Positions 9,131 to 55,173 of a stretch of 64,000 bases of DNA are shown in pieces; the first letter of the stretch is position 1, and each line of letters opens with the position of its first letter. The notes beneath the pieces are model-generated. The model made no database searches and was not told the DNA's origin. It saw nothing but the letters and a program-made list of their open reading frames with translations. The DNA is taken from the NCBI RefSeq assembly GCF_024345415.1, contig NZ_JAGQBB010000012.1, positions 1-64,000 on the forward strand, written 5' to 3'. Both the position numbers and the translations under genes were made by a program. The stretch comes from Synechococcus sp. Tobar12-5m-g. Its GTDB lineage: Bacteria; Cyanobacteriota; Cyanobacteriia; PCC-6307; Cyanobiaceae.

Positions 9131-9498
9131 GCGGCTCGATCGTGCTGGCTGCCGACGATCCTGCGGTCCTCGCGGCGTTCTATGCCGCCCTGCTGGAGGT
9201 CGAGGCAACACCTGGCCTGGGCCCATCCCACTGGCGGGTGCCCTGGCCCGCTGGCGGCCAGCTGGAGATCTATGTGCCCTCGCGCACGCGGCCGCAGCCG
9301 CACCAGGGCGGCCGGCTGGCCCTTTGCCTCCAGCAATCTTCTGAGGGGAGGGACGCCATGACGGTGCTGACCGCCTGGCTTGAGGTCGCTGAACACCTGG
9401 GAGCGGACCAGGCGGAACCGCCACGCCAGGAACCGTTCGGGGTGGAAGCCTGGCTGCTGGATCCGGAAGGGAACCGGCTTCTGCTGCTGGTCAGCTGA
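9112..9498 (+). CDS. VOC-superfamily (glyoxalase-like) protein
   Basis: 128 residues from a GTG at 9112, overlapping the end of the CDGSH frame by 19 bp. It has the VOC pattern: a first beta strand (GSIVLAADDPAVLAAFYAALL) and a C-terminal LLDPEGNRLLLLVS strand matching the usual DPDGN motif. The metal-ligand set is incomplete by eye, so a binding role is as likely as catalysis. The overlap chain metallothionein-CDGSH-VOC suggests one transcript linked to metal or oxidative stress. It ends convergently 8 bp inside recD2. Confidence 0.7.
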   Translation: MEVVGLSGSIVLAADDPAVLAAFYAALLEVEATPGLGPSHWRVPWPAGGQLEIYVPSRTRPQPHQGGRLALCLQQSSEGRDAMTVLTAWLEVAEHLGADQAEPPRQEPFGVEAWLLDPEGNRLLLLVS

Positions 9499-11770
9499 GC
9501 CATTCCGCCAGCCTGGTGTAACGCCTGCGACCCAGGTGGTTCTTCACGGCCATCGCCAACGCCTTCTTCTGTCCCACCAGCACCACCAGCTGCTTGCCGC
9601 GGGTGATGCCGGTGTACACCAGGTTGCGCTGCAGCATCGCGTAGTGCTGGGTGAGCAAAGGGATCACCACAGCGGGGTATTCGCTGCCCTGGCTCTTGTG
9701 GATCGTGCAGGCGTAGGCGGGCACCAGGTTGTCGAGTTCCCCCCAGCCGTAGGTCACCTCCCGGCCGTCAAAACGCACCGTCAGCTCACTGGCATCGGCG
9801 TCGATCGTTTCCACCGTGCCCACATCACCGTTGAACACTTCTTTCTCGTAGTCGTTGGCCACCTGCATCACCTTGTCGGCCGGAGCAAAGCGCCAGCCAA
9901 AGCGCTCCACCTGCTCAGGTGGATCGGGGTTGAGCAGTTGCTGCAGCTCGATGTTGAGCGAGCGGGAGCCGCAGCCACCGCGCGCCATCGGGCAGAGCAC
10001 CTGCACCTGGGCGATCGGATCGAGGCCGAAGCGGGCCGGGATGCGTTCGCCCACCACCTTGAGGATCAGGGCCACCGCCTGCTCGGGTGTCTCGGCGGGA
10101 AGGAAATAGAAGTCGGTGGTGCCCTCAGCCGGTGGGGGCCGCAGATCGGGGATGGTGCCGGCGTTGATGGCGTGGGCGGTGGTGATGATCCGGCTGGACG
10201 CCGCCTGGCGGAACACCTCCATGAGCCGGGCCACCGGCAGGGCGCCACTGTTTATCAGATCGGCGAGCACCTGGCCGGGCCCCACCGAGGGCAGCTGGTC
10301 CACATCGCCCACCAACAGCAAGGCCGCCTCGGGTGGGAGGGCTTCCAGCAGGGAGGCCATCAGGGGCACATCCACCATCGAGGTTTCATCCACCACCAGC
10401 AGATCGCACTCCAGCGGCAGCTCGGCATTGCGCTTGAAGCCAAGGGCCGCCGGGTCGAACTCCAGCAGCCGGTGGATCGTCTTGGCTTCCAGCCCGGTGG
10501 TTTCGCCCATCCGCTTGGCGGCACGACCGGTGGGGGCGCAGAGCAGGATGCGCAGCTTCTTGGCGGCCAGGATGCGCAGGATGGCGTTGATCAAGGTGGT
10601 CTTCCCCACCCCAGGGCCGCCGGTGATCACCAGCACCTTGCTGGAGAGGGCCTGCTCCACGGCTGCCTTCTGGCTGGCGGCGAGCTCGAGAGCGAGCCGT
10701 TGCTCCACCCAGGGGATGGCAATGGCGGCCTCAATCGCTCCCCAGGGCGGGCGGCCTGCCCCCAGCGCCTGGAGGGCTGCCGCGATGCGGCGCTCATCAC
10801 GGTGCAAGTTGGACAGGAAGATCGCCGGCTCACCGGCCAGGGTGTCGGCCACCACCGAGCCCTCGCTCAGCTCCAGATCCAGGGCGCTCTGGATCAGGCC
10901 GCTTTCCAGGGGCACCCGCTTGGTGGCGCCGGTCTCATCGAGTGGCCCACTCGGCCGCTCCACAGCCAGCAGCTCACCGGCCAGCTTGAGCAGCTCGGCT
11001 CTGGGCAAGCCGCAGTGGCCATCACCAGTGGCCTCCAGCAGGGCGTAGTTGATACCGGCCCGCAGACGGATCATCGCCTCTGGTTCGATGCCCAGCCGTG
11101 CGGCGATGGCATCAGCGGTGCGAAAGCCGATGCCACGGATGTCGCGGGCCAGGCGGTAAGGGTTATCGGCCATCACCTGCACGGCGTCGTTGCCGTACGT
11201 CTTGAAGATCCGCACCGCCCGGGCGGTGCCGACGCCATGGCTGTGCAGGAAGACCATGATTTCGCGCACCACTTTCTGATCCGCCCAGGCCTGGCTGATC
11301 CGCTGGCCCCGCACCGGGCCGATGCCGGGCACCTCCCGCAGGCGCTCAGGCGCCTGCTCGATCACCTCGAACACCTGATCGCCGAAGGCCGCCACGAGCT
11401 TGCTGGCGTAGATCGGGCCGATGCCGCGGATCATCCCTGAACCCAGGTACTTCTCGATGCCTTCTGCGGTGGTGGGCGCTGAGGCCTTGAGGAAGGAGGC
11501 CTTGAACTGCTGGCCGTGCTCGCGGCTGTTCACCCAGGTGCCGCTCACGGTCACCCCTTCGCCAGCACTGATCTCGGCGGCATGGCCCACCACCGTCACC
11601 AGGTCGCGGTGGCCGCGGGCCTTGATGCGCAGCACGCAGAAGCCGTTCTCGGCGTTGTGGAAGGTGACGCGCTCGATCGAGCCCGCCAGCACTTCGGTGG
11701 GCTGCGGGCTGGCCTGGGCCTGATCGGACGGGGACGGGCGTGCCAGGGCGGGAGTGGCCTGTGGGCTCAC
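9491..11770 (-). CDS. recD2: RecD2-type ATP-dependent 5'-3' DNA helicase
   Basis: 759 residues. An N-terminal OB-like domain (RVTFHNAENGFCVLRI) is followed by helix-hairpin-helix repeats (IGPIYASKLV; VPGIGPVRGQRI) and a superfamily 1B helicase core with Walker A GGPGVGKTTLI near residue 386, Walker B VVDETSMVD, GDVDQLPSVGPG, and the C-terminal UvrD-like segment ending in YACTIHKSQGSEYP. This is the stand-alone RecD2 plan, not the RecBCD subunit. It probably acts in replication or repair. A partial second copy of its C-terminal region lies at 23,443-23,921. Confidence 0.92.
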   Translation of the reverse strand: MSPQATPALARPSPSDQAQASPQPTEVLAGSIERVTFHNAENGFCVLRIKARGHRDLVTVVGHAAEISAGEGVTVSGTWVNSREHGQQFKASFLKASAPTTAEGIEKYLGSGMIRGIGPIYASKLVAAFGDQVFEVIEQAPERLREVPGIGPVRGQRISQAWADQKVVREIMVFLHSHGVGTARAVRIFKTYGNDAVQVMADNPYRLARDIRGIGFRTADAIAARLGIEPEAMIRLRAGINYALLEATGDGHCGLPRAELLKLAGELLAVERPSGPLDETGATKRVPLESGLIQSALDLELSEGSVVADTLAGEPAIFLSNLHRDERRIAAALQALGAGRPPWGAIEAAIAIPWVEQRLALELAASQKAAVEQALSSKVLVITGGPGVGKTTLINAILRILAAKKLRILLCAPTGRAAKRMGETTGLEAKTIHRLLEFDPAALGFKRNAELPLECDLLVVDETSMVDVPLMASLLEALPPEAALLLVGDVDQLPSVGPGQVLADLINSGALPVARLMEVFRQAASSRIITTAHAINAGTIPDLRPPPAEGTTDFYFLPAETPEQAVALILKVVGERIPARFGLDPIAQVQVLCPMARGGCGSRSLNIELQQLLNPDPPEQVERFGWRFAPADKVMQVANDYEKEVFNGDVGTVETIDADASELTVRFDGREVTYGWGELDNLVPAYACTIHKSQGSEYPAVVIPLLTQHYAMLQRNLVYTGITRGKQLVVLVGQKKALAMAVKNHLGRRRYTRLAEWLS

Positions 11771-12049: not shown

Positions 12050-12262
12050 TCAATCGGTTTGGGACGTGCTGGCCATCGTCCAGGTGCCATCGCAACTGTC
12101 GCCATTCACAAGCAGCGCTTCGGGGGTCGGTGGATCAAGAGAACGCACCCCCTCCAGCGTGCATCCCAGTTCGCCAGCCTCGTTCAGGGTGGGAATGGGG
12201 ATCCAAAGCGGCGCCAGGTGAGCGCCCGTCATTGATGGGCTGCCACGGTGAGGCACAACCAC
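12050..12262 (-). pseudogene. N-terminal fragment of a family 2 glycosyltransferase
   Basis: The translated segment reads WIPIPTLNEAGELGCTLEGV and then PEALLVNGDSCDGT. This aligns directly with the start of the intact GT2 gene at 14532-15281 (SIIIPTLNEGTALARTLRHV; WEVLVVDGGSRDHT). Only the first ~50 residues of the nucleotide-binding half exist before a stop, and no catalytic DxD-like region follows. It is a truncated duplicate. Confidence 0.7.
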
Positions 12263-12313: not shown

Positions 12314-12340
12314 GAAAAGCGCTCGGCAGCGGCGCTTTTC
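12314..12340 (-). terminator. terminator of the rhodanese gene
   Basis: GAAAAGCGC and GCGCTTTTC form a perfect 9-bp stem with a 9-nt loop, overlapping the rhodanese stop codon. On the minus strand the second arm ends in CTTTTC, followed by TCTTGT, a short T-rich tract consistent with intrinsic termination. Confidence 0.65.
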
Positions 12341-12791
12341 ATCGGTTGCGATTCAGGAGCAGACCCCAGAAGCGATTGAACGGATGCACCCGCTTGGTGG
12401 CTTGATCCCCATGCACCAGCTGATGCCCATGATTCACCCATTCAAACAGCCCTCCCTCAAGATTCACGGCCCTCCGGAAGCCCAGCTGCTGTAGCCGGTT
12501 CACCACGGCCGCGCTGCGCAACCCCACCGAGCAGCAAACCACGATTGGCTTCTCCAGGCTTGCTTCGCCCAGCGAGCCGAGGCCCGGGATTTTTCCCCCA
12601 TCCGCGATACGTACAGCGCCGGGGAGGCCGCTCACGTGGCATTCGGCAGCCGTGCGGGCGTCAAGAATCAACCAGTCTCCGCTCTGCTGAATCGCAAGTG
12701 CTCGTTGCAGGTCGGCAGGGCAAATAGAGGGTGCATTAGGATAACGCACATGAATCCAAAACTTAAGCCAAAACCACACTAAATTGGTCAT
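12339..12791 (-). CDS. rhodanese-like domain protein (intact copy)
   Basis: 150 residues. A hydrophobic, aromatic N-terminus (NLVWFWLKFWIHVRYP) precedes a single rhodanese domain with the LILDARTAAEC strand-turn and the active-site loop CCSVGLRS, whose second cysteine would carry persulfide. It ends with LEGGLFEWVNHGHQLVH. It probably transfers or binds sulfane sulfur, perhaps membrane-associated through the N-terminus. A 36-residue membrane peptide is encoded 33 bp upstream on the same strand. Two decayed relatives lie at 16,510-16,860 and 19,150-19,330. Confidence 0.85.
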   Translation of the reverse strand: MTNLVWFWLKFWIHVRYPNAPSICPADLQRALAIQQSGDWLILDARTAAECHVSGLPGAVRIADGGKIPGLGSLGEASLEKPIVVCCSVGLRSAAVVNRLQQLGFRRAVNLEGGLFEWVNHGHQLVHGDQATKRVHPFNRFWGLLLNRNR

Positions 12792-12824
12792 GAGCGAATG
12801 GTTCTGGCGTCCGGTAAAACCCGA

Positions 12825-12935
12825 TCACCACGAAGCGGTGCTGAACAGAACTTGCAGCAGCGCAAATCCTGCCAGACAGGTGGCGGCAAGCAATGGAATG
12901 GTATGAAACATCGTCGAAACATCCTGGATCTTCAT
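12825..12935 (-). CDS. 36-residue single-span membrane peptide upstream of rhodanese
   Basis: The ATG at 12935 encodes a peptide with a polar N-terminus (MKIQDVSTMFHT) and one hydrophobic span (IPLLAATCLAGFALLQVLF), ending STASW. It is 33 bp before the rhodanese ATG. A duplicate at 19,364 keeps the same length and spacing, with mostly conservative changes in the span, which argues that the reading frame was once under selection. Function unknown; possibly a membrane partner of the rhodanese. Confidence 0.55.
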   Translation of the reverse strand: MKIQDVSTMFHTIPLLAATCLAGFALLQVLFSTASW

Positions 12936-13008
12936 TGCCTGATAGTGCTTGATTATCCCTAATGATGACAGGCTCGGTGTGGAGAACGACAGACACATTC
13001 AGAGATGA

Positions 13009-13492
13009 AGTTATGTTGCCGATGGTGTGATGTGCCCTGCCCCTGCTTTCAGGACACGAACCGCCGGTACAGCCAGCGCACGAAGCCACCCACCACCGGT
13101 ACCGGCGCGAAGGTGGGTCCGACGAAATCGAAGTAGTCGCGATGGTCCACGATCGTTCCGTCGGCACCGATGCTCAGGCGGGTGGTGCCGGGATAGACGA
13201 ACTCGATCCCCTTGATCTTCAGGCCCATCGTCCACTCCACGAAGGCCGTCTCACCGCTAAGGGCCACGGCACCGGGCGCAAGGAAAACATCCTCACAGCG
13301 GTGCATCAGTCCCTCCTGGGCAGCGATGTAGGCCTCAATGCCTTGCTTCTCCTGGGTTGGGTCCTGAAAATGGACCTTGGCGTCGTAGACGGCCCGCCAC
13401 TGCTCCGCGCTGGGCGCCGCAGCGCCATAGGGCTTGGTGAACAGGGCCTTTAGCGTCTCCTCGGTAAGCGGCGGCGTGAGGACTGCGTTCAT
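13009..13492. repeat. segmental duplication, copy 1 (partner at 19,549-20,033)
   Basis: The sequence from GTTGCCGATGGTGTGATGTG through the whole NTF2-like gene is almost identical to 19,549-20,033. Homology continues in weaker form into the membrane peptide and rhodanese on the left of each copy. Confidence 0.85.
13049..13492 (-). CDS. NTF2/SnoaL-like protein, copy 1
   Basis: 147 residues from the ATG at 13492. It has the cone-fold pattern of the SnoaL/NTF2 superfamily: an N-terminal helix pair, AVYDAKVHFQDPTQEKQGIEAYIAAQEGL, a beta sheet with AFVEWTMGLKIKG, and DGTIVDHRDYFDF. Relatives include small ligand-binding proteins and ketosteroid isomerases; no specific activity can be assigned. 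It differs from copy 2 at about 16 positions (roughly 89% identity by eye), so both copies appear functional. Confidence 0.8.
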   Translation of the reverse strand: MNAVLTPPLTEETLKALFTKPYGAAAPSAEQWRAVYDAKVHFQDPTQEKQGIEAYIAAQEGLMHRCEDVFLAPGAVALSGETAFVEWTMGLKIKGIEFVYPGTTRLSIGADGTIVDHRDYFDFVGPTFAPVPVVGGFVRWLYRRFVS

Positions 13493-13857
13493 GGCGGCTC
13501 CGTGGTCTGGCGGGCAAGGGGAAAGCAAAAGGCTGGCAGCTCTGGAGCCAGGATGCGCGGCCATCCAGCCGGATTGATCCGTCGGAAGCGTTCCTGGTCA
13601 GGCCAGCCCCGCCAGCAGCGGCAGACCGATCGGCACCACCCCCAGGCTACCGGCGTCGGTCTCGACGTCGGGGTGGCTCACCTCCATCCCCCAGCAGCTT
13701 GATCCCTGTCCTGGGATATGTCTGATCTTCGATGGCACCCTTGGTTTTGACGCGCACCAGGCAGGTGCCGCGGGAGTGGCTGACGCCACACCTTTTCAAC
13801 GGTGCCGGCCCCAGGCACGTCCCACAACCCAATCCACTCGAGCACCCCTCCCTGCCC

Positions 13858-14550
13858 ATGAACGACCTCCCCACCTGGGATCATCTCCTCCACCAACATG
13901 TGGACCGGGTCGGCCGGGTGGATTACCAAGCCTGGATCACCCACCACCCCCAGACCCTCGCCCGCTGGCTGGCCGAGCAATCTGCCGCGACCCACGGCCG
14001 CGAGGATCACCTTGCCCACTGGATCAACCTCTACAACGCCTTCACCATCCAGGCGGTGCTCTCGGCCTATCCCATCATCTCGATCCGCCCCACCCTGCTG
14101 GGCCTACCGAACTGGATCGCTTTCCTGCGCTTCTTCCAGCGGCGCGTGCATCGCCTCGGCCCTGAGCGTTTAAGTCTGGAGCAGATTGAGAACAGAATGC
14201 TGCGGCAGATCACGGGTGATCCCCGAATTCACTTTGCGATCGTCTGCGCCTCAGTGGGTTGTCCGCTGCTGCGCCACGAGGCCTACACGCCGGAGCGGGT
14301 GGAAGCGCAACTGGAAGAGGATGCGAGCCGCTTCATCAACAACCCCGCCAAGGTGCGCTTCGAGCCTGAAGAGGGCGTTCTGTACACCAGCAAGATTTTC
14401 CAGTGGTACAGGGCTGATTTCATGGCGGTGGCGCCGTCGCTGCCCGCCTACATCCTTCCCCGCCTGCGCGGCGTTGCGGCCCCGCTTCATGAACCCAGGA
14501 TCGCGTTTCTTCCCTACGACTGGAGCCTGAATCAGCGGATGTCCTCGTAG
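13858..14550 (+). CDS. DUF547 domain protein
   Basis: About 230 residues from the ATG at 13858 (MNDLPTWDHLLHQHV). It carries the DUF547 hallmarks: DHLAHWINLYNAFTIQAVL near the front, the central IENRMLRQITGDPRIHFAIVCASVGCP block, and FINNPAKVRFEPEEGVLYTSKIFQWY toward the end. The family is widespread in bacteria and plants with unknown activity, though the conserved Cys and His suggest an enzyme. It ends 19 bp inside the convergent glycosyltransferase gene. Confidence 0.85.
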   Translation: MNDLPTWDHLLHQHVDRVGRVDYQAWITHHPQTLARWLAEQSAATHGREDHLAHWINLYNAFTIQAVLSAYPIISIRPTLLGLPNWIAFLRFFQRRVHRLGPERLSLEQIENRMLRQITGDPRIHFAIVCASVGCPLLRHEAYTPERVEAQLEEDASRFINNPAKVRFEPEEGVLYTSKIFQWYRADFMAVAPSLPAYILPRLRGVAAPLHEPRIAFLPYDWSLNQRMSS

Positions 14551-15281
14551 AAGCGCTTCAGGCGCGCCGGAGGCAGGCCCAGGCCCCAGAGCACGCCGAT
14601 TGAGAGATAGATCGCGGCCGCCTTGCAAGCTCCCCAGCGCTGCACCCGCCGGTCGGAACTGATCACCACCCGGTTGATCAGCCGGATGCGGCCGTGCTTC
14701 ACCAGCCGCAGGCAGAGATCGCCATCCTCCAGGATCGGCAGAGCTTCATTGAAGCCACCGGCCTCCCAGAAGGTCTGCCGGCGGCAGATCATCACCTGAT
14801 CACCGAACAACAGGCGCAGCCCGCGCCAGTAGAGGTGGGGGCGAAACAGCAGGGGCGCCAGATGGGTCTTGAGCAGGTTCAGGGCCGAAATCCCCCAACG
14901 GGTTGTGTCGCCATTGCCCATCAGGGAAATGAAGCCAGCGCAGGAAATCGAGGAATCTGCCAATGTGCGCTGAGCAACACTGGTCAGATCGTCGGGAATC
15001 AGGGTATCCGCATGCAGGAAACAAAGTAGATCTCCCGTGGCGGCTCTGGCCCCATCGTTCATCTGCAGAGCACGGCCCGCCTCCTCGCTCCGGAGTATCA
15101 CCACCCCAGCATCATTTGCAATCTGCACGGTGTGGTCTCTGCTGCCACCATCGACCACCAGCACCTCCCAAGCAGGAGGATGCAGAGCTTTAACGTGCCG
15201 CAGGGTGCGCGCCAGGGCGGTGCCTTCATTCAGGGTGGGAATGATGATCGAAAACGTGCCATCAGTGCCATTCTCGGACAA
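14532..15281 (-). CDS. family 2 glycosyltransferase (TIGR04283-like)
   Basis: 249 residues with a GT-A start (FSIIIPTLNEGTALARTL, VLVVDGGSRDHT), the metal/sugar motif LCFLHADTLIP, and GDQVMICRRQTFWEAGGF followed by EDGDLCLRL. The C-terminus holds a short hydrophobic span (AAIYLSIGVLWGLGLPP). It matches the subgroup annotated in arsenosugar clusters, but no arsenic gene is nearby. Its first 20 bp overlap the acyltransferase gene, so the two are translationally coupled and may act together on a cell-surface glycan. Confidence 0.85.
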   Translation of the reverse strand: MSENGTDGTFSIIIPTLNEGTALARTLRHVKALHPPAWEVLVVDGGSRDHTVQIANDAGVVILRSEEAGRALQMNDGARAATGDLLCFLHADTLIPDDLTSVAQRTLADSSISCAGFISLMGNGDTTRWGISALNLLKTHLAPLLFRPHLYWRGLRLLFGDQVMICRRQTFWEAGGFNEALPILEDGDLCLRLVKHGRIRLINRVVISSDRRVQRWGACKAAAIYLSIGVLWGLGLPPARLKRFYEDIR

Positions 15282-16386
15282 CCTCAGCGCCGCGTATCAG
15301 GCCCTCGTGGAGGCCCACACTGAACAGTAGAGAAAGAAGACTGATCAGCACAAACTTTGCCGCAATGTCCAAAGAAAGAGGAACCACAAAGAATGCAATG
15401 ATCACAATCAGGGGTTGGTGGAACAGGTAGACGGAGAAGGCCACCCGGTTGCCATAGCTCAGGATGGGGTGGCTGAAGGTGCGATAGGGCCGTGCCAGAG
15501 CAAGCAGGGCCAACACCCAGCACCAGCTGTTCAACCCTCGAAAGCCCTGGTAGACCATGTAAGGGGCTGAGTAGGCTCGCCCCGGAACCATTTTCGTGAT
15601 GCTGAGAACAATCAGCAGCGCCATTGCCAGTCCTGCCGTGACACTGAGGAGCCACCTGTGCTCATCCAGAGCCGACCACAGTCTGGTGTCGTGGCAGAAG
15701 AGATAGCCATAGCAAAAGTACAACAGATACAGCAGTAGATTGGCCCAATCGTCGTAGAGGTTCTGGAAGCCGATCCAGTGTGGACGCAACACGGCTTCAA
15801 CGGCCATCAACGGCACGGCCAGAACAATCAGTGATCCCAGGCCATGGGTCTCTAAAGGGAGCGGGGAGCCATCGGTCGACATGCTTTCACCGCTGAGCTG
15901 CAGCATGACAGGAAGGCATACGAACGAGATCACAAGTAAATACGCCAGGAACCAGAGATGTCCCCATTCAAAATGACCGTATGGCCGAATTCCGTCAAAG
16001 AACTTGGGGTAGAACCTCAGGAAGGAGCTGTTCTCTCCGCCAATTTGTAGCTCGTGGAGATACACCTGAGGTGGAACGAGTACCAGGATTCCAATCAGCA
16101 GAGGCAGCAGAAGACGCCGAAGGCGTTGACGCACATACTCACCCTGAGAACGTGTCTGCAGGGAATACCAACTAGCGGCGCCGGCCAGAAAGAAGAACAA
16201 TGGCATATGCCACTGATGCACGAACTGGATGAAGATGCTCAAGCCAACACTGCTTTCCGCATTGAGGACATAGAAACTGCCCAGTTCACCCTCGTAGAAG
16301 ACAGCGGCCGAGTGAAAGGTGATTAGCAAAGCAACGGCCATCAAGCGCAGCAAATCCAGATCATGGGAACGGACCAGATGGGTCAT
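15262..16386 (-). CDS. acyltransferase 3 family membrane protein
   Basis: 374 residues with about ten hydrophobic spans and the family start HDLDLLRLMAVALLITFHSA, followed by the conserved WHMPLFFFLAGAASW segment. Acyltransferase-3 proteins transfer acetyl or similar groups to extracytoplasmic sugars. The gene is followed, with overlap, by the GT2 gene. Base composition is somewhat less GC-rich than in neighbours, consistent with a surface-polysaccharide module acquired laterally. Confidence 0.85.
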   Translation of the reverse strand: MTHLVRSHDLDLLRLMAVALLITFHSAAVFYEGELGSFYVLNAESSVGLSIFIQFVHQWHMPLFFFLAGAASWYSLQTRSQGEYVRQRLRRLLLPLLIGILVLVPPQVYLHELQIGGENSSFLRFYPKFFDGIRPYGHFEWGHLWFLAYLLVISFVCLPVMLQLSGESMSTDGSPLPLETHGLGSLIVLAVPLMAVEAVLRPHWIGFQNLYDDWANLLLYLLYFCYGYLFCHDTRLWSALDEHRWLLSVTAGLAMALLIVLSITKMVPGRAYSAPYMVYQGFRGLNSWCWVLALLALARPYRTFSHPILSYGNRVAFSVYLFHQPLIVIIAFFVVPLSLDIAAKFVLISLLSLLFSVGLHEGLIRGAEVVREWH

Positions 16387-16453
16387 GGGCTCCTCCCGCT
16401 TTCCCCTCTACAGCTCTTTTCTGTCAAGAGCCTTCCTCAGACGCGAGTGTTTA

Positions 16454-16498
16454 GGGGAACCATAAGGGTGGGTTCTTCCTGCCTCATTCTGGTTCCCC
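16454..16498. terminator. 9-bp inverted repeat between acyltransferase start and rhodanese relic
   Basis: GGGGAACCA (16454-16462) pairs perfectly with TGGTTCCCC (16490-16498) across a 27-nt spacer. It lies just downstream of the decayed rhodanese frame and could be its old terminator. Confidence 0.4.
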
Positions 16499-16509
16499 CG
16501 TCTCAAAAA

Positions 16510-16860
16510 CACTGGAAGAGGCCACCGTTCAGGTTGATGACCTGCAAGACCTCTGCGAGTCTTAGTTCATGAACCGTGCAGCGCTACGCACTCCATCCGA
16601 GCAGCAGACGACGATCGGCCTGTCCCTTGGCAGGGTCGTGATCAGTTCCAGGTCCGCAACCTGATCGGTCTGCCTCGATCGGCATTGCCAGCTCAGATGA
16701 CTGAATGCAAATTCCACCGGTGTCCGCGCATCGAGAATCAGCAAATCGACACCCCCCATCTTTGACGAGGATCCACGCGATCTGCTCGCCTCCGATGGAT
16801 GTCATGTCTGGAAAGCGCCTCCGAATCCATCGCTTCAGGAAAAAGAAGAACGTGCTTAGC
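16510..16860 (-). pseudogene. decayed rhodanese-like gene (third copy)
   Basis: Pieces of the rhodanese protein are visible in order but in different frames. FFFLKRWIRRRFPDMTSI matches the N-terminus of the intact copy, LLILDARTPVEF the first strand, PIVVCCSDGVRSA the catalytic loop, and LQVINLNGGLFQCF the C-terminus. There is no start codon at the N-terminus, one frameshift near 16,755, and a stop plus second frame change near 16,562. The active-site CCS-x-G-x-RS is preserved, so decay is recent. Confidence 0.8.
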
Positions 16861-17495
16861 GGGCCCTAACCTTGCTAATCATCGCTGAATCGGGACCTAC
16901 CAGGAACGATAACTCCCCTGCTACCGGTCAGGGGGCCATGGGCAAAGTAGCTGGTTCGGCATCGATTTCTGTAAGTGGTGGATTGGTCCACACGGCTTCC
17001 GGCTGACGCCCGCAGCGGGTCGATCCTGTCCAGCAGCGTTGATGACGCCGACAAGATCTGCAGTGATGTTCGGATCCTCGTGTTCAGCCCCATCCCAGGC
17101 CACTGCCATGGGGGTCCAGACGGCGATCACAAGTCGAGGTCTAGCTCCACGCCCCGATGCCCAGGAGGCCTGGTGGCGTTTCTGGAGGTCCTTCTGCTCG
17201 GGCATTAAAGCCATTTTAGCAACCCTAGGCGACATGCCCTCAGACCGCCACGCTGTAAGGACGCATCGATCGATTCCATCAGGCCCTCTGGTGGTTGAAG
17301 GGGTCGGGATGGCGGGGCGACATCGGTCCGGCAGTGGAGGCCACCGACGGCGAGGTGATCCGCTCAACCCATCAGTACTGGGGCCCGATCCAGATCGAAT
17401 GCCCTGCCCACTCACGGACGGGGGGCGACGGCGGTTAGGTTTCTGGTCAGCCAATGAATTGACTAAGGAGCGAATTGGGTGGTTTCGATTCATCT
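16861..17495. other. gap with one coding-like relic (17,263-17,437) and otherwise no recognisable gene
   Basis: No convincing gene fills this stretch. One plus frame, 17263-17437, reads like protein (RFHQALWWLKGSGWRGDIGP, then THQYWGPIQIECP) but has a stop directly upstream and no start. I do not recognise the family. The remainder looks like decayed sequence upstream of the desaturase. Confidence 0.4.
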
Positions 17496-18650
17496 ATGAC
17501 TTCAGCTCCATCTCTTTCCCTGGCAGAGCAATCAGTCTCCGCCCCGTTGTCAACTCTCCCGCTCCATCCCTGGCCGACCAAGCAGCAACTTTTGGCTGCT
17601 CTGCCCGCGGACAGCACCGAAAAGAGTATCCCGAAGGCCTGGGCAAGCCTGGCTTTCTCATTGCTCACCACCCTGCCGGTCTACGCCCTGGGTTGCATCC
17701 TCCCGCTCCAGTGGAGTGTTGCGCCGCTCTGGCTGGTCTATGCCGTGGTGGCCGGAACCCTGGCCGGAGGGTGTTGGGTGATCGCCCACGAGTGCGGGCA
17801 CCATGCCTTCCACCCCAACCCAGCTGTGGAGAACGGCGTTGGGCTTGTTCTCCACAGCCTGCTTCTGGTTCCGTATTTCTCCTGGCAGCGCAGCCATGCT
17901 GTTCACCACGCCCATTGCAATCACCTCGAAGCCGGTGAAACCCATGTGCCTGCATTGGGACAATCAGTATGGGGGGAGCTCACCCGTCAACTCAAGCGGA
18001 ACCTTGGTGATTCGGCCTATGGAGTCGTTTCTATTTCCATCCATCTGCTGGTGGGTTGGCCTCTCTATCTGCTCTTCGGAATCACCGGCGGCCCTGCGCA
18101 GGGCTTCCCTACCTCACACTTCATCGACTCCGCTCCATTCAACGACGGGGAACGGGAGCTGTTCCCGGGCAAGTGGAAAGGTCTGATGCGAATCTCCAAC
18201 ATTGGCTTGGGCCTGGTCCTGGTTTTGCTAGTGGTCTGGGCGACGCAAACCTCAGCGATGCGTGTGCTCTGCGTCTACGGCCTGCCCTACCTGATCATCA
18301 ACGCCTGGCTGGTTTGCTACACCTGGCTGCAGCACACGGACACGACGATTCCTCACTTCTCCGGGGATGATTGGGACTGGGCCAAGGGGGCCCTGCAGAC
18401 CGTGGATCGTCCCTACGGCCCGCTCCTGAACCTGTTACATCACGGCATCGGCTCCACCCATGTGGTGCATCACCTCAATCCCCGCATCCCCCACTACAAG
18501 GCCTGGGAAGCCACCGAACAGATCCGCCAGGCTTTCCCAAACCATGTCAGACGCGATCCCACCACGATCCATCAGGCGCTGTGGCGAATCGGTCGGCATT
18601 GCAGCACGGTCAGCCGAGCCGATCACGATGGCGGCTTTTACTACAGTTGA
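17496..18650 (+). CDS. FAD2-like (plant-type) acyl-lipid desaturase
   Basis: 384 residues from the ATG at 17496; an upstream TTG would add seven. It has three histidine boxes of the membrane di-iron desaturase fold: HECGHH (98-103), HAVHH (134-138) and HVVHH (322-326), with four hydrophobic spans. HECGHH and the final HxxHH followed by PHYKAWEAT match eukaryotic oleate delta-12 desaturases (FAD2) rather than the HDCGH/HHL pattern of cyanobacterial DesA. It probably introduces a double bond into membrane fatty acids. It lies alone in a region rich in broken genes, so lateral acquisition is likely. Confidence 0.85.
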   Translation: MTSAPSLSLAEQSVSAPLSTLPLHPWPTKQQLLAALPADSTEKSIPKAWASLAFSLLTTLPVYALGCILPLQWSVAPLWLVYAVVAGTLAGGCWVIAHECGHHAFHPNPAVENGVGLVLHSLLLVPYFSWQRSHAVHHAHCNHLEAGETHVPALGQSVWGELTRQLKRNLGDSAYGVVSISIHLLVGWPLYLLFGITGGPAQGFPTSHFIDSAPFNDGERELFPGKWKGLMRISNIGLGLVLVLLVVWATQTSAMRVLCVYGLPYLIINAWLVCYTWLQHTDTTIPHFSGDDWDWAKGALQTVDRPYGPLLNLLHHGIGSTHVVHHLNPRIPHYKAWEATEQIRQAFPNHVRRDPTTIHQALWRIGRHCSTVSRADHDGGFYYS

Positions 18651-19110
18651 AGGCTTGGCAGCTCAGCCGGCCTGGAAATCAAACCCCTTCGAGCCAGTCG
18701 GAGCGGCCGTCGAGGGTCAACGGGTCCATCCTGTCCTTGCCGGGCAGCGGGCAGCGACATGGCGGTGATGGCGGTGAGTAATGGACTCGGCGGTACCCAA
18801 GGCTCATCAGAAGTCAACCGGAGCTCCGTAGGCGAAAGCTTCTTCAAGAGCAGCAACCGTCTACCTGGCCGAAGGCCAGCCTGGCGGAGCCACCAGGTCG
18901 AGTCCGTCGGCGGCTTGGCGATGTGGTGGGTCCCCAGCAGACGCATCCACCACGACGGGAAGCGGATCCCGCGGCTCATGCGGCAATCGGGCAGAGCCTT
19001 GACGAAACTGATCAGATCAGTTGCGGCAGCCGAGGTCTGTGAAGAGGCGAAGCTAATGGAGAGGAGCGGTTCCTGGGCACCAGAGCGGAGCTGGCAGCGC
19101 CGCTTCACAA
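18651..19110 (-). pseudogene. possible ISAs1-type transposase remnant
   Basis: A minus frame contains DLISFVKALPDCRMSRGIRFPSWWMRLLG, shown here only as resemblance to the N-terminus of ISAs1-family transposases (D-L-x-F-x3-P-D-x-R-x2-x-G-x-R-[YF]-P). The sequence then loses similarity, and no DDE residues follow. If correct, only a short stump of the element survives between the desaturase and the duplicated rhodanese relic. Confidence 0.35.
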
Positions 19111-19149
19111 CGATTGGGACACAGTTCGAATGGCCCCTGGCCCATGCAA

Positions 19150-19330
19150 CTGCTGATGCCCATGATCACGCCATTCAAACAGCCATCCCTTGAGATTCAC
19201 GATCCTCCGGAAGCCCCGGCCCGGCTTCAGGAGACAGTTGACCGCCGGTCGTCAGGGTAACTGGAGGGTGGTCCATCGGGATGCGCAAGCGAATTCACTG
19301 CTTGAGCCAAAACCACACCAGATTGGTCAT
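19150..19330 (-). pseudogene. rhodanese relic, second copy with large internal deletion
   Basis: The ATG at 19330 starts MTNLVWFWLKQ and stops (TGA at 19295-19297), matching the first ten residues of the intact rhodanese. About 19,150-19,225 matches its C-terminal coding sequence, including the CCCATGATTCAC-like stretch and TCCTCCGGAAGCCC. The ~250 bp encoding the catalytic domain are gone. Gene order with the membrane peptide and NTF2-like gene is kept. Confidence 0.8.
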
Positions 19331-19363
19331 CAGCCAATGGTTCTGGCCCCTAGTCAAGGCCGA

Positions 19364-19450
19364 TCACCACGAAGCGGTGCTGAACAGCAGTTGCAGCACA
19401 ACGAATCCCACCAGACAGGTGGCGGCCAGCAACGGAATGGTGCTAAGCAC
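19364..19450 (-). pseudogene. second copy of the 36-residue membrane peptide, start codon lost
   Basis: The same span (IPLLAATCLVGFVVLQLLF, then STASW) ends at the TGA at 19364-19366, 33 bp before the rhodanese relic. Aligned residue by residue, the ATG of copy 1 corresponds to CCG here. A GTG nearby could give a 29-residue version. The span itself shows only conservative changes. Confidence 0.55.
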
Positions 19451-19548
19451 GATGGAGTCGACTTGACTCTCCGGTCTACTCGCTCTGCCTTTCTCATCCC
19501 TGCCGATTGGAGGCTAAGTATAGAAAATATTATACACATTTCCAGATG

Positions 19549-20033
19549 AAGTTGTGTTGCCGATGGTGTGATGTGCCCTGCCCCTGCTTTCAGGACACGA
19601 ACCGCCGGTACAGCCAGCGCACGAAGCCACCCATCACAGGCAACGGCGCGAAGGTGGGGCCGACGAAATCGAAGTAGTCGCGATGGTCCACGATCGTTCC
19701 GTCGGCACCGATGCGCAGGCGCGTGGTGCCGGGATAGACGAACTCGATCCCCTTGATCTTCAGGCCCATGGTCCACTCCACGAAAGCCGTCGAGCCGCTG
19801 AGTGCCACGGCGCCGGGCTCAAGGAAAACGTCATCGCAGCGTTTCATCAATCCCTCCTGGGCAGCGATGTAGGCCTCGATGCCGCGCTTCTCCTGGGTGG
19901 GGTCCTGGAAATGGACCGCATCGTCGTAGACGGCCCGCCACTGCTCCGCCGTGGGCGCCGGAGCGCCATAGGGCTTGGTGAACAGGGCCCTGAGCGGCTC
20001 CTCGGTGAGCGGCGGCTTGAGAACAGCGTGCAT
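19549..20033. repeat. segmental duplication, copy 2 (partner at 13,009-13,492)
   Basis: Near-identical to 13,009-13,492 over the NTF2-like gene and its 3' flank. Both copies are on the minus strand, so this is a direct repeat about 6.5 kb apart. Confidence 0.85.
19590..20033 (-). CDS. NTF2/SnoaL-like protein, copy 2
   Basis: 147 residues, the same length as copy 1 with no frameshift. Substitutions are concentrated in the N-terminal third (for example MHAVLKPPLTEEPLRALF) and on the helix containing EGLMKRCDDVFLEPG; the C-terminal half is nearly unchanged. Differences are mostly conservative, so this copy is likely expressed. The flanking genes differ from those of copy 1: here a small membrane protein and a DUF2256 gene lie upstream. 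Confidence 0.8.
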   Translation of the reverse strand: MHAVLKPPLTEEPLRALFTKPYGAPAPTAEQWRAVYDDAVHFQDPTQEKRGIEAYIAAQEGLMKRCDDVFLEPGAVALSGSTAFVEWTMGLKIKGIEFVYPGTTRLRIGADGTIVDHRDYFDFVGPTFAPLPVMGGFVRWLYRRFVS

Positions 20034-20062
20034 GGCGGGCGATCCCATCAGACCCCGATGGC

Positions 20063-20314
20063 CTACCTGCGCTGGTAGGCGTAGGCCGCACCGCCAAGAC
20101 CTGCCAGCCCCAGGGCTCCTGCGGCGGCCAGGAACAGCAACATCTGGAGAGCCAGCAGGAATAAGCCCAGGGCCGAGGCGAGCTTGATCTGGATCCTGGC
20201 TTTGATCAGCAGGGTGATGAGCAACAGAACCGTGGCCTTCAGCCCCAGCAGGCTGGCTGCGGTGAGCGGAAAGGGGGCGTGGGAAGCAGCACGGTTCCAA
20301 TCCAGTGCTCCCAT
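20063..20314 (-). CDS. small hydrophobic membrane protein, unknown
   Basis: 83 residues from the ATG at 20314 (MGALDWNRAASHAPFPL). Two or three hydrophobic segments follow (SLLGLKATVLLLITLLIKA; ALGLFLLALQMLLFLAAAGALG), with a short basic tail (AYAYQRR). No family recognised. It is directly upstream of the NTF2-like copy 2 on the same strand. Confidence 0.5.
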   Translation of the reverse strand: MGALDWNRAASHAPFPLTAASLLGLKATVLLLITLLIKARIQIKLASALGLFLLALQMLLFLAAAGALGLAGLGGAAYAYQRR

Positions 20315-20452
20315 GCTGGTGAGGTTGGAGGCACAGCGGGACGCTGCAGGGTTACTCCGCCGGCTTCTCGGCGAGCACCGTAAAGAACGAATCCCCCTTG
20401 CCGCCCAGCGAGCCCATCGGTCCTCCTCGCTCAGCACGGCGACAGCCATGGC

Positions 20453-20614
20453 TTACTCCGCCCCAATGGGCTTAGCAACGCTGGAACGGCGGCGGCGGCA
20501 CCGCTCCGAGCAGTACCGCACCTCCTCCCAGACGTCCTTCCATTTTTTGCGCCATTGAAACGGGCGACCACAGACCGGGCAGACCTTGGTGGGGCGCTCT
20601 GGCTGATCGGCCAT
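20453..20614 (-). CDS. DUF2256 zinc-ribbon-like protein
   Basis: 53 residues from the ATG at 20614. It contains [31 protein letters not shown], the full DUF2256 signature, with two CxxC-type pairs (CPVC and CSERC) likely to bind zinc. Genes of this family often neighbour cryptochrome/photolyase genes, but none is seen here. Function unknown. Confidence 0.8.
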
Positions 20615-21019
20615 CGGCGATTCAGGGATTGACAGGCTGCTGGGGCAAGCCTGCTTCAAGGGGCCACGGCATACTCACCACTTCGGGCTGCAGGGCGCCC
20701 AGCCCGTCCTGCGCTTCTCAGCCCAGGGCTTGAGGGCTTCCGTTCGTCTCAAATCCTGCCTGCGCTTCAGCAAAGGGATCTCCTGATCGGGCAGTAGCTC
20801 AGAGGTGATGACCTCGGCCTTTGGTTCTGTCAAGCGCCATCGGGAATGAGTGCTGGACCAGTTTTCGCTGTCGCCTGACATCCTGAATGAAGACTACGGG
20901 CACTTCTGCCCTGACACTTGAGGACATGGAATCAGAGGAGTGGGTGATGATGCGATCAGTCCAGCGAGCGTTATGAGGCATCCACATTCCATGGCTACTT
21001 TTAAAAGATAACTTGATTG
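20615..21019. other. gap: possible 68-codon minus frame, AT-rich end
   Basis: A minus frame at 20675-20881 could encode a basic 68-residue peptide (MSGDSENWSSTHSRWRLTEP at its start), but no family or ribosome-binding site is evident. The stretch next to the oxidoreductase (20,990-21,020) turns AT-rich, consistent with a composition boundary. Confidence 0.3.
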
Positions 21020-23418: not shown

Positions 23419-23442
23419 GGCCCACGCAGTCGGCATCACCCG

Positions 23443-23921
23443 CCGCAAGCAGCTGGTGATGCCGGTGTACACCAGATTGCGCTGCAGCATGGCGTTGTGC
23501 TGGGTGAGCAAAGAGATCACCACGGCGGGATATTCGCTGCCCTGGCTCTTGTGGATCGTGCAGGCGTAGGCGGGCATCAGGTTGTTGAGTTCCCCCCAGC
23601 CGTTGGTCACCTCGCGGCCGTCAAAGCCCCCGGCTTCCCCGTAGGGGTAACGCACCGTCAGTTCGCTGGCATCGGCGTCGATCGTTTCCACCGTGCCCAC
23701 ATCACCGTTGAACACTTCTTTCTCGTAGTCGTTGGCCACCGGCATCACCTTGTCGGCCGGCGCGAACCGCCACCCGAAACGCTCCACCTGCTCGGTGGGG
23801 TCGGGGTTGAGCATTTGCTGCAGCTCGATGTTGAGCCACCTTGACCTGCAACCACCACGCGCCATCGGGCAGAGCACCTGCACCTGGGCGATCGGATCGA
23901 GGCCAAAGCGGGCAGGGCTGC
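23443..23921 (-). pseudogene. duplicated C-terminal fragment of recD2
   Basis: The fragment translates from ARFGLDPIAQVQVLCPMARG to NLVYTGIT, corresponding to about 160 residues near the C-terminus of the intact RecD2 (genomic 9,590-10,040). Identity is high. Differences include an eight-residue insertion (YPYGEAGG) and RWLN for RSLN. It has no start, lacks the Walker A half, and both ends run into unrelated sequence. It cannot be a functional helicase. Confidence 0.85.
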
Positions 23922-43327: not shown

Positions 43328-44037
43328 GCGTTCGACGGCCGGTTCTGGCTCTCCAGGTAAGCAAACACGCTCTTGTCGCCCACGTCGGCCGCCGCCGGCA
43401 TCGGGAACTTGCGCAGGCACAGCACCAGCAGCAGGGCCGTTTGCACCGCCAGCAGGGTGAAGGTGGTGGGGCCGTCGAGCAGGCCGGCCAGCCGGCCCAG
43501 CAGCGTGGCCGGCAGCAGGAGGGTGACGCCGATCGCCTCGGGCCGCTGGAAGCAGAAGAACTCCTTGAAGCCGATGCCGGCCAGGGCGGCGAAGAACGGC
43601 CCCACCGCCCAGATCCAGCGGGAGTCCGCCGCCAGGGCGGGAAGCATGGCGTTGGCACCCACCCGGGCGGCGAGCACCAGGCCACCGGCGCAGCCCAGCA
43701 GCCAGAAGAGCTGCAGGGCCCGGTGCAGCGGCCGCAGGTAGATGTGGATCCAGAGCAGGGCCAACCCCAGGCCCACCGCCATCACCAGCAGCCAGGGCCA
43801 CAGGGGTGTGCCATCCCCGAAGCTGCGCCACTGCCAGAGCAGGGCCGCCTCGCCCACCCCCACCGCCAGCAGGGCGAGGCGGTAGCCCAGCACCTCGCGC
43901 CGGTCGGTGGCGTCGATCGTGAAGGGGCCATAGACCCCCTCGAACACCGGATCGCCCTGGGCCGGATCGTGGTTCAGAGGGCGTGTGGTCGAGCCGGTCA
44001 TCGGGTCGGGCATCGGATGGGTCTTCGCCTTCATCAT
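43324..44037 (-). CDS. DUF2301 integral membrane protein
   Basis: 237 residues from the ATG at 44037, which overlaps the GST stop (ATGATGA). An N-terminal soluble region containing the conserved YGPFTIDATDRREVLGYR precedes about six hydrophobic spans and the FFCFQRPEAIG loop. The family is cyanobacterial and plastid-related, with unknown function. Overlaps of 4 bp on both sides tie it into an operon between GST and ABC-F. Confidence 0.85.
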   Translation of the reverse strand: MMKAKTHPMPDPMTGSTTRPLNHDPAQGDPVFEGVYGPFTIDATDRREVLGYRLALLAVGVGEAALLWQWRSFGDGTPLWPWLLVMAVGLGLALLWIHIYLRPLHRALQLFWLLGCAGGLVLAARVGANAMLPALAADSRWIWAVGPFFAALAGIGFKEFFCFQRPEAIGVTLLLPATLLGRLAGLLDGPTTFTLLAVQTALLLVLCLRKFPMPAAADVGDKSVFAYLESQNRPSNA

Positions 44038-44999
44038 GGCGGGGCCTTGGAGGGGCACCCACCCACCAGGGTGGCCAGATCAGGGCCGGCCGGAACGATG
44101 CCGGAGGGTTGGAGGGGGAAGAGCGCCCCGAAGTAATCGCGCCGCCACGCTTCGGGGAAGCAGGTGTCGGCCACGCCGCCGAGGCCGAAGAAGCGCCGTC
44201 GCCAGTCCCAGAGGGCGGGGAACTGCCAGAGCGGCCGCCGGGAGCAGCCGAACAGGGGGGCATAGACGAGCTCCAGCCGAATCAGGGTGGGGAACAGCAC
44301 CACATCGGCAAGGGTGAGCTGATCGCCGCAGAGCCAGGGGCCGCCGCCGGCGAGGGCCTGCTCCATCGCATCGAACCCCGCGAACAGCTCCACTTCGGCC
44401 TTGTCGTACGCCGCCTGATTCCGCGCGAAGCCACACCGGTAGACCCCATCGTTCACGGCATCCTGGAGTCGCACGCGCCACTGGCCGATTGCCTCGGCCC
44501 GCTCGGCGGGTTCCAGATCGGGTGCCGCCGCCGCCGGCCAGCGGTTGAGCAGTTCGATCAGCCGGGCGCTTTCGTTCACGACGATCCGCTGCTCCCGGCG
44601 GTCGTAGAGCACCGGCACGGTGGCCCGGGCCCGGGGGTCGCTGCCGCAGCGGCGGTACAGGTCGATCAGGGCCGTGGCCCCCTCGAATGGTTCGGCGAAC
44701 CGCCAGCGGCCCGCCTTCGGGTCCGGCTCCACCACCACCAGCTCGATCGACTCCCCCAGGCCCCGGAGCGTCCAGACCAGCCAGGCTCGGTGGGCCCAGG
44801 GGCAGCTGCGCCCCACGATCAGCACATGGCCGCCGGGCTGCCCGGCGCTGGCTGGAAGCTCGGGGGATGCGCTGAAGGCCGCCACCGGGCGGCGGTAGTT
44901 CCCCTGGGTATCGGCGGGCCCAAGGCCGCCCATCAGCTGCAGCCATTGCCAGTGCCACGCCTGGCGGACGGCGGCGACCACGGGGGGAGGGATGGCCAT
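44034..44999 (-). CDS. glutathione S-transferase, glutathionyl-hydroquinone reductase-like
   Basis: 321 residues from the ATG at 44999. The thioredoxin-like N-domain carries the xi-class active-site motif RSCPWAHRAWLVW, and the region NESARLIELLNRW matches the conserved glutathione-binding turn. The C-terminal helical domain has GGPWLCGDQLTLADVVLFPT. Such enzymes reduce glutathionyl-(hydro)quinones with glutathione. First gene of the GST-DUF2301-ABC-F run; divergent from the aspartoacylase gene. Confidence 0.88.
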   Translation of the reverse strand: MAIPPPVVAAVRQAWHWQWLQLMGGLGPADTQGNYRRPVAAFSASPELPASAGQPGGHVLIVGRSCPWAHRAWLVWTLRGLGESIELVVVEPDPKAGRWRFAEPFEGATALIDLYRRCGSDPRARATVPVLYDRREQRIVVNESARLIELLNRWPAAAAPDLEPAERAEAIGQWRVRLQDAVNDGVYRCGFARNQAAYDKAEVELFAGFDAMEQALAGGGPWLCGDQLTLADVVLFPTLIRLELVYAPLFGCSRRPLWQFPALWDWRRRFFGLGGVADTCFPEAWRRDYFGALFPLQPSGIVPAGPDLATLVGGCPSKAPP

Positions 45000-45075
45000 G
45001 GCGCTCTGCGGCGGACCCCTCAACTCTGGAACCTCCAGGGGCGGACCTGCCAGGCTGGCTGCGGGCCGGCACAGG

Positions 45076-46038
45076 ATGGCGATGGCAGCAGACGGGGGGA
45101 TGGCCGCGGGCAGGGTGCTGGTGGTGGCCGGCACCCATGGCAACGAACGCAACGCCCCCTGGTTGCTGGAGCACTGGCGCCAGCAGCCCGCCGCTTTGGA
45201 GGCCAGCGCCCTGGCCCTGGAGCTGGCGATCGGCAATCCGGCCGCCCTGGCCGCCGGGGTCCGCTACATCCAGCGGGACCTGAACCGCTCCTTTTCCCTG
45301 TCCCTGCTCGATGATCCTGGCCGGGAGGAGCTGGAGGTGCAGCGGGCCCGGCAGCTGATCGCGGCCCATGGCCCCGGCGGTACCAGCCCCTGCCCCGTGG
45401 TGCTGGATCTGCACAGCACCACAGCGGCGATGGGCAATTCCCTGGTGCTCTATGGCCGCCGCCCGGCGGATCTGGCCCTGGCGGCGGGCATCCAAAGCCT
45501 CCTGGGCCTGCCGATCTACCTGCACGAGGCGGATGCGGCCCAGAGTGGCTTTCTGGTGGAGCAGTGGCCCTGCGGCCTTGTGATCGAGGTGGGGCCGGTG
45601 CCCCAGGGGGTGATCACCGCCACGGTCTGCCGCCAGACCCAGCTGGCCGTCGAGGCTGCCCTCGCCGTGCTGGCCGCGGCCCGTGCCGGCCGGTTGCGCC
45701 TGCCATCCACCCTGGTGGTGCACTGCCACGCGGGCAGCCTCGATCTGCCCCGCCACAGCGATGGCCGGCCGGCCGCCTGCCTGCACCCCCTGCGCCAGCA
45801 CCGCGACTGGCAGCCCCTCCATCCCGGCGCCCCCCTGTTTCTCTGCCCGGACGGCACCACCACCTGCCAGGCGGCCACGGCTAAATCGCCGCTGTGGCCG
45901 GTGTTCATCAACGAGGCCGCCTACGGCGAGAAGGGCATTGCCCTGAGTGTCACCCGCCGAGAGCAGTGGTCCTGCCAGCCCAGTTGGGCGGAGGCGCTGG
46001 TGGCGTTGTGCGAGGGCCTGGCGCTCAGGGCGCCATGA
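45076..46038 (+). CDS. aspartoacylase/succinylglutamate desuccinylase family protein
   Basis: 320 residues from the ATG at 45076; an ATG at 45100 is also possible. The zinc hydrolase core reads VVAGTHGNERNAPWLL (H, E ligands), AIGNPAALAAGVRYIQRDLN with R-D-L-N-R-S, VLDLHSTTAAMGNSLV (third ligand His), and GLVIEVGPVPQG with the catalytic Glu. It would hydrolyse an N-acyl amino acid such as N-acetylaspartate; the true substrate in cyanobacteria is unknown. Confidence 0.9.
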   Translation: MAMAADGGMAAGRVLVVAGTHGNERNAPWLLEHWRQQPAALEASALALELAIGNPAALAAGVRYIQRDLNRSFSLSLLDDPGREELEVQRARQLIAAHGPGGTSPCPVVLDLHSTTAAMGNSLVLYGRRPADLALAAGIQSLLGLPIYLHEADAAQSGFLVEQWPCGLVIEVGPVPQGVITATVCRQTQLAVEAALAVLAAARAGRLRLPSTLVVHCHAGSLDLPRHSDGRPAACLHPLRQHRDWQPLHPGAPLFLCPDGTTTCQAATAKSPLWPVFINEAAYGEKGIALSVTRREQWSCQPSWAEALVALCEGLALRAP

Positions 46039-46432
46039 CCCGGATCGGGCCGTTGTAAACGACCGCCAGGATGGAGCGGCCATCCGGGGAGACCCGGAGC
46101 TCCGTTTCCACCGTGGCCGGCAGGTTCAGCTGCTGCCAGCCGGGGGGCCCGCCCTTGAACCGGAACAGGATGCCCTGGTCGCTCGATTCGACGATGCAGT
46201 TGCCGGCGGCCCGGTCGAACATGCAGGCGGCTGGCCGATAGACGTTGAGCCCGCCATTGAGCTTCTCCGCCTTCATCCGGGCCAGGTTGGTGGCGCGCTG
46301 CAAGTTGAAGGGAAAATCGGCCTGGGCCCAGGCCGATGTGCCCGCCAAGGACGAGGCCCCCGCAATCGTGATGGCGCTGATCAAGCCGAAGCAGGCGCGG
46401 AGCAACGGGCGCTGGAGGGGGAAGTCAGCCAC
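46025..46432 (-). CDS. exported hypothetical protein, 135 aa
   Basis: GTG start at 46432 with a signal peptide (LLRACFGLISAITIAGASSL, cleavage near AWAQA). The mature part contains two cysteines (ACMFDRAAGNCIVESSDQG) likely to form a disulfide, and a beta-rich end (ELRVSPDGRSILAVVYNGPI). It overlaps the upstream lipoprotein gene by 8 bp and the end of the aspartoacylase gene by 14 bp. Function unknown. Confidence 0.7.
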   Translation of the reverse strand: MADFPLQRPLLRACFGLISAITIAGASSLAGTSAWAQADFPFNLQRATNLARMKAEKLNGGLNVYRPAACMFDRAAGNCIVESSDQGILFRFKGGPPGWQQLNLPATVETELRVSPDGRSILAVVYNGPIRVMAP

Positions 46433-46769
46433 AGGCCCAGGTGCCCTGCTCCTTGGTGCAGGGCAGGTCGCTGCTGCTGCCGTCGGCCCAATAAATCCGT
46501 AGCCGGTCATCGGCGCTGCCCATGCGGAAGGTGAGTGACTTGACAACACCGGCAGGTGGTTTGCCGGCAGGGTCAGCGGCATTGGTTCCTGCCGGGCTGG
46601 CCAGGCGTTGCTCCACCTGCTGCAGTCGCTGCTCGAGTTGATCGATGCGTTTGCTCTGGGGGTCAGACTTTCCCCAGCATCCTCCCAAAGTGAAGGCGAG
46701 AACCAAGGATCCGACGGCGGCCAGGCTGGTTGTGCCGCCGCCGCGACAAACAGGGAATCGGAACGGCAT
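46425..46769 (-). CDS. putative lipoprotein with coiled coil, 114 aa
   Basis: A hydrophobic signal with lipobox (LVLAFTLGGC) is followed by a heptad-like helix (RIDQLEQRLQQVEQRLASPA) and a small C-terminal domain with two cysteines (LPCTKEQGTWACG). It is translationally coupled to the downstream exported protein; the two probably act together in the periplasm. Function unknown. Confidence 0.7.
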   Translation of the reverse strand: MPFRFPVCRGGGTTSLAAVGSLVLAFTLGGCWGKSDPQSKRIDQLEQRLQQVEQRLASPAGTNAADPAGKPPAGVVKSLTFRMGSADDRLRIYWADGSSSDLPCTKEQGTWACG

Positions 46770-47143
46770 CGCCGCACCAGGGCCAGGGGAACCCTGTACT
46801 CCTAGCAGCGCACTTCAGGTGTTGGCCAGCCGCTCACTCCAGTACACGACAGCCCCTTGCTGCTCGAGTTGGTTGCGACGAACCCGGGCTTGATGGAACG
46901 GGACGGTTTCCGAAGACCGACTACCGCGGAGATCCCAACAGATCAGCACCATGGAGGACCAAGACAGATTCAGAAGACAACCTTAAGAAGCCTTTGTGCT
47001 TTCAAGCACAGTTCGTGGGCAAGACGTGACATTCGGCCATCCATGGCCTGGCCTTGGCGCGGGTTACTCCATCCTCCTGCCACCTGGCTTCCGGTTCGAT
47101 CGGGGTGATCGTGCTGTGGAATGGTTCAACCCGAGGAGCGACC
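46770..47143. other. gap with no recognisable gene
   Basis: 374 bp between the lipoprotein start and the methyltransferase. A small hairpin (TGTGCT-ttca-AGCACA, near 46,995-47,010) is the only structure seen. No tRNA or open reading frame of substance was found. Confidence 0.5.
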
Positions 47144-47806: not shown

Positions 47807-47838
47807 TGGCGAAGGGATCGATCACCTCGGCGCCAGGA

Positions 47839-48363: not shown

Positions 48364-48371
48364 TCCGGTGC

Positions 48372-49352: not shown

Positions 49353-49370
49353 GGGCAACGATGGCGCCGT

Positions 49371-52213: not shown

Positions 52214-52250
52214 ACGGAACCAAAGGAAGGGATCTGAATAGCCTGGCGAC

Positions 52251-55170: not shown

Positions 55171-55173
55171 GGC

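Follow-up and report, generated by a model that had tools for sequence, protein, structure and literature searches.

The locus examined in this study, a window of 64,000 nucleotides from the draft genome of Synechococcus sp. Tobar12-5m-g (contig NZ_JAGQBB010000012.1, positions 1 to 64,000), carries two similar runs of genes for an NTF2-like protein, a small hydrophobic peptide and a rhodanese-domain protein. Their proximity raises the question of whether one run is a recent copy of the other that has since decayed selectively, which was the reading of the initial annotation. The analysis presented here corrects that tempting reading: the pair in the window belongs to a set of four copies of one cluster, scattered through the genome of this freshwater picocyanobacterium and eroded in different ways.

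Module copies in the window and in the genome

Copy 1 (12,339-13,564) and copy 2 (19,141-20,038) lie 6.5 kb apart on the minus strand in identical gene order, NTF2-like gene, small peptide, rhodanese (Table 1), and their homology is far above chance (blastn E = 0). The blastn alignment has 83% identity with gaps over 798 columns, with a separate 88% block over the end of the rhodanese, while the NTF2-like genes, both with intact reading frames, are 90.5% identical in DNA and 89% in protein. The homology, shared strand and order, and intact NTF2-like genes of about 89% identity described by the initial annotation are thus all confirmed, as is the internal deletion of the copy-2 rhodanese, of which only the N-terminal part and about residues 104-135 align. 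Selective decay holds for that rhodanese but not for the adjoining peptide gene, whose supposed lack of an ATG is no lesion: an in-frame GTG occupies the start position used by relatives, and the 28-codon frame is open.

Table 1. Features of the two module copies and their surroundings in the window
Feature	Coordinates	Strand	Evidence or remark
recD2 helicase gene, downstream neighbour of the module as in 1G10	9491..11770	-	
Glycosyltransferase gene remnant adjoining the copy-1 rhodanese	12155..12210	-	71% repeat of GT2 gene start
Copy 1 rhodanese-domain gene, 150 aa, intact	12339..12791	-	Pfam Rhodanese 49.1 bits; best NCBIfam NF045521, below cut-off
Copy 1 hydrophobic peptide gene, 28 aa, ATG start	12825..12911	-	pN/pS < 1
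Copy 1 conserved leader element, upstream of peptide	12982..13012	-	Pattern search; 24-sequence alignment
Copy 1 NTF2/SnoaL-like gene, 147 aa, intact	13049..13492	-	Pfam SnoaL_2 37.3 bits; clade with C32
MarC gene fragment upstream of copy-1 NTF2-like gene	13602..13690	-	98% to C32 MarC
DUF547 - TIGR04283 glycosyltransferase - acyltransferase block between the copies	13732..16386		Same neighbours in SynAce01; paralogous GT2-DUF547 on C32
Third rhodanese-domain fragment, behind the DUF547-GT2-acyltransferase block	16562..16759	-	
Copy 2 rhodanese C-terminal remnant	19141..19216	-	88% repeat of 12408-12483
Copy 2 rhodanese N-terminal remnant	19244..19325	-	blastn 19244-20038 to 12707-13497
Copy 2 peptide gene, 28 aa, intact, GTG start; leader element degraded	19364..19450	-	
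Copy 2 NTF2/SnoaL-like gene, ORF intact	19590..20033	-	Pfam SnoaL_2 42.5 bits; clade with C23
Copy 2 upstream block, common to C23, without counterpart at copy 1	20038..20815	-	19341-20815 87% to C23; markers; Pfam
recD2 3' fragment (second copy)	23433..23921	-	91% to 9580-10044; abuts end of methyltransferase-like gene

The genome assembly (2.95 Mb, 47 contigs, 99.97% complete), in which the window is contig C4, contains two further copies of the module, at C32:6154-7367 and C23:92168-92846. Neither these, nor the third rhodanese fragment, nor the repeats around the module were listed in the initial annotation. The C32 copy matches copy 1 at 86% over the whole module, and copy 2 aligns to C23 over 1.5 kb, including the upstream block (a small membrane ORF, DUF2256 and an ORF like DUF1651); the NTF2-like gene on C23 is frameshifted by a 1-nt deletion. 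Copy 1 and copy 2 share no flanks beyond the genes themselves, the upstream sequence being shared with C32 and C23, respectively.

Phylogeny and mosaic structure of the NTF2-like gene

In the tree of NTF2-like genes, copy 1 with C32 (support 100/96) and copy 2 with C23 (98/98) form separate pairs, so that each copy matches a separate lineage better than it matches the other, largely the outcome that the initial annotation had named as evidence against a direct duplication. Among informative sites of the four copies, 64 support this pairing, seven unite copy 1 with copy 2 and C32 with C23, and none supports the third pattern. For the whole gene, a pairing of copy 1 with copy 2 is weakly rejected (p-AU 0.034), and monophyly of all four copies is not (p-AU 0.425), so that the full-length data are compatible with one origin and uneven divergence thereafter.

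The two ends of the gene appear to have different histories. A scan for breakpoints located a significant change with every one of the four outgroups, near nt 312 for three of them and near nt 267 for the other. To the left of nt 312, copy 1 shares its state with 1G10 at 21 sites and with copy 2 at 5, while to the right the counts are 3 and 22 (permutation p < 0.0005; 0.0025, 0.0145 and 0.0365 with the three other outgroups). When the gene was divided into 309 and 129 nt, a split picked after the scan, the first 309 nt rejected both the pairing of copy 1 with copy 2 (p-AU 0.0006) and the monophyly of all four copies (p-AU 0.031). In this part, copy 1 and C32 group with CS-1325, Cruz-7E5, one 1G10 copy and a bin.51 pseudogene (92/95), partners that include other genomes and another genus. 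Over the last 129 nt, the four copies of this genome form one clade (93/93). Branch support within the clade is modest in this 441-nt gene. Gene conversion would be expected to leave a significant mosaic breakpoint on one side of which the copies cluster by genome, and this is the pattern seen; taken together with the pairing of the copies, its simplest account is that old paralogs were partly homogenised by gene conversion, for which the case is strong but not final. The high overall identity of copy 1 and copy 2 is in part a consequence of the homogenised 3' end.

Genomic context

Relatives carry longer runs that include the module: NTF2 - peptide - rhodanese - recD2 - metallothionein - SNase - AbrB in 1G10, and HLIP - NTF2 - peptide - rhodanese - GT2 - DUF547 in G096. 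The window, C32 and C23 each hold a different subset of such a run with the order conserved. The neighbours of copy 1 and C32 match CS-1325, 1G10 and G096, with MarC adjoining the NTF2-like gene in C32 and CS-1325, while the membrane-ORF neighbour of copy 2 and C23 adjoins NTF2 in M. elabens and A. saxicola. Single repeated segments recur on C11, C14, C25 and C26, and recD2 and SNase-AbrB are likewise present in duplicate in SynAce01. No close copy of a control stretch of the window (44,000-63,900) was found in the rest of the genome.

Several other features of these surroundings were observed. Segments with SNase-AbrB, a gene of unknown function (gene Y), metallothionein and HLIP are repeated on C4, C6, C11, C14, C23, C25 and C32. 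About 100 bases of the window (17244-17343), 80% similar to the ends of C28, C31, C34 and C37, are probably a repeat that broke the assembly. A P4-type phage/plasmid primase gene (L007 2034-4499, C23) lies a few kb from the C23 copy, possibly within an integrated element. The phage records searched contained no match to the module, and a scan for tRNA genes that might mark an integration site close to any of the four NTF2 copies found none.

Explanations for the four copies

The four copies, their pairing, their mosaic structure and their patterns of loss are observed directly, and they are probably best explained by at least two old paralogous lineages that were recopied to give four dispersed copies and partly homogenised by gene conversion. 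Under this explanation, the NTF2-like - membrane peptide - rhodanese cluster would comprise two or more old paralogous lineages among freshwater picocyanobacteria, each copied again in this genome, one as copy 1 and C32 and the other as copy 2 and C23. The copies would sit in an accessory region rich in repeats, in which colinear segments recur (MarC/HLIP, NTF2, peptide, rhodanese, GT2-DUF547, recD2, metallothionein, gene Y, SNase and AbrB) and different genes have been lost from each, and homologous recombination among the dispersed copies, the presumed mechanism, would have partly homogenised them, most clearly in the last ~130 nt of the NTF2-like gene. A simple segmental duplication within the window, with one copy the daughter of the other and later decay, is already largely refuted and very improbable. 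Strand, gene order, the 6.5-kb spacing and the 83-90% identity all invite it, as do a small number of sites shared downstream of the peptide and the nearly identical 3' ends of the NTF2-like genes; however, directly duplicated copies should be closest relatives along their whole length, and here each copy has a nearer relative outside the window, the upstream genes differ, and the pairing is rejected, clearly in the 5' part and weakly over the whole gene.

Import of one or both lineages from related picocyanobacteria into the accessory region appears unlikely. In its favour, copy 1 is closer in its 5' part to sequences of other genomes and of another genus than it is to copy 2, the copy-2 upstream block is arranged as in a more distant group, and a primase gene lies near the C23 copy. 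On the other hand, 1G10 and bin.51 likewise have a pair of copies whose surroundings match in part, consistent with old paralogy and loss, and the other repeated segments tend to group within genomes. The same trees could also arise if close relatives had donated homologous segments, so the proposed copying within the lineage is best regarded as the presumed route. That C32 or C23 derives from a second strain in the culture is scarcely credible. The assembly is a draft in which C32, at just 14 kb, has no assigned position in the genome, but both ends of C32 overlap other contigs exactly (~127 bases), making it part of the same assembly graph; moreover, contamination is 0.07%, two of the copies lie on one contig with unique flanks, and C23 is a 163-kb contig.

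Constraint and possible function of the module genes

The initial annotation suggested that the copy-2 NTF2-like gene was retained for function and proposed a dN/dS comparison of the two genes and a count of copies in relatives. The comparison gave an omega of 0.26 between copy 1 and copy 2 versus 0.12-0.20 among relatives. Codon changes private to copy 2 (eight nonsynonymous, two synonymous, close to the neutral expectation of roughly 3:1) do not show constraint; the numbers are small, and that the frame has stayed open over so few changes counts for little. The NTF2-like protein occurs in 74 of 151 family genomes, in most of them as a single copy, with two copies in 1G10 and bin.51. It has no NCBIfam match and no close or useful solved structure. 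CS-1325, SynAce01 and CZS48M likewise have a reduced rhodanese or none, which marks this gene as the labile part of the module. Most likely, the NTF2-like protein and the 28-aa membrane peptide are the useful core and the rhodanese is dispensable. HLIP genes adjoin the NTF2-like gene in several genomes, and this proximity suggests a possible membrane-linked role in light or oxidative stress. These functional readings draw on gene neighbours and weak signals of selection.

The process described above is of a known kind, and the unannotated peptide with its conserved leader is the most interesting part of the locus. The predicted hydrophobic peptide of 27-28 aa has an intact frame in all four copies, including C23 with its frameshifted NTF2-like gene. 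GTG is the commonest start among relatives, and the GTG of copy 2 is at the same position as in 1G10, CS-1325, SynAce01 and most others; G096 has TTG, and ATG is found in copy 1, C32 and one other sequence only. A longer reading of 57 aa from an upstream start was discarded, as both the alternation of ATG, GTG and TTG and the conservation begin at the internal codon. Over all pairs, pN/pS is 0.32, and the variable columns are mostly third positions (23 of 44). An alignment-based search found the peptide in 24 of 151 family genomes from eight genera, the weakest matches being doubtful. One genome (G008) has it at C5:170419-170496, between tRNA-Leu and a thiamine-binding-protein gene, and no NTF2 match was found in that genome. 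The peptide is not known to resemble any photosystem subunit.

In most copies, a leader of about 40 nt, AACTTCATCnnnnAnTGTGTnTGTnGTTCTCCACA, stands roughly 60-70 nt upstream of the peptide; in copy 2 it is degraded. RNAalifold gave only a 4-pair stem without compensatory changes and no covarying structure for the leader, an Rfam scan of the module returned nothing credible, a sigma-70 scan found no promoter, terminator-like sites were not above shuffled sequences, and the leader pattern was absent from the viral contigs searched. A type I toxin-antitoxin system was considered for the peptide, and neither a covarying leader structure nor an Rfam match was found. A tentative reading, on which opinion could fall either way, is that the conserved core of the module is not the NTF2-like gene but a new family of predicted 27-28 aa membrane peptides with its own ~40-nt leader, which would occur in picocyanobacteria of several genera, whether or not NTF2 adjoins it and at times as two to four copies in one genome, under a shared cis-regulatory signal.

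Comparison with known systems

On a small scale, the locus allows old paralogs, differential gene loss and local gene conversion to be distinguished within one bacterial accessory region, and it draws attention to a tiny conserved predicted membrane protein outside the family libraries searched (Pfam and NCBIfam). A literature search on freshwater picocyanobacterial paralogs, genomic islands and this module found nothing specific. As in the concerted evolution by gene conversion of prokaryote paralogs (PMC6053082), paralogs of one genome are more alike than orthologs over part of the gene; here, however, only ~130-180 nt of an accessory gene are homogenised, and the parts upstream and downstream keep the older paralog signal. 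Both NTF2-like proteins of the window belong with the SnoaL-like/NTF2-like proteins (Pfam PF12680), passing the curated SnoaL_2 gathering score of 27 bits. The rhodanese compares best with NF045521 (rhoda_near_glyco), the family found beside TIGR04283 glycosyltransferases: a glycosyltransferase of this type follows the rhodanese directly in C32 and G096, and a remnant adjoins it in copy 1. It differs in scoring below the 145-bit cut-off (89.5 bits for copy 1, 95.3 bits for C32) and in following an NTF2-like gene and a 28-aa peptide. Finally, the peptide resembles the small membrane proteins of cyanobacteria (PMC5126843) in being a short, single-helix hydrophobic protein conserved within a cyanobacterial group, and differs in that, at 27-28 aa, it matches no Pfam or NCBIfam model.
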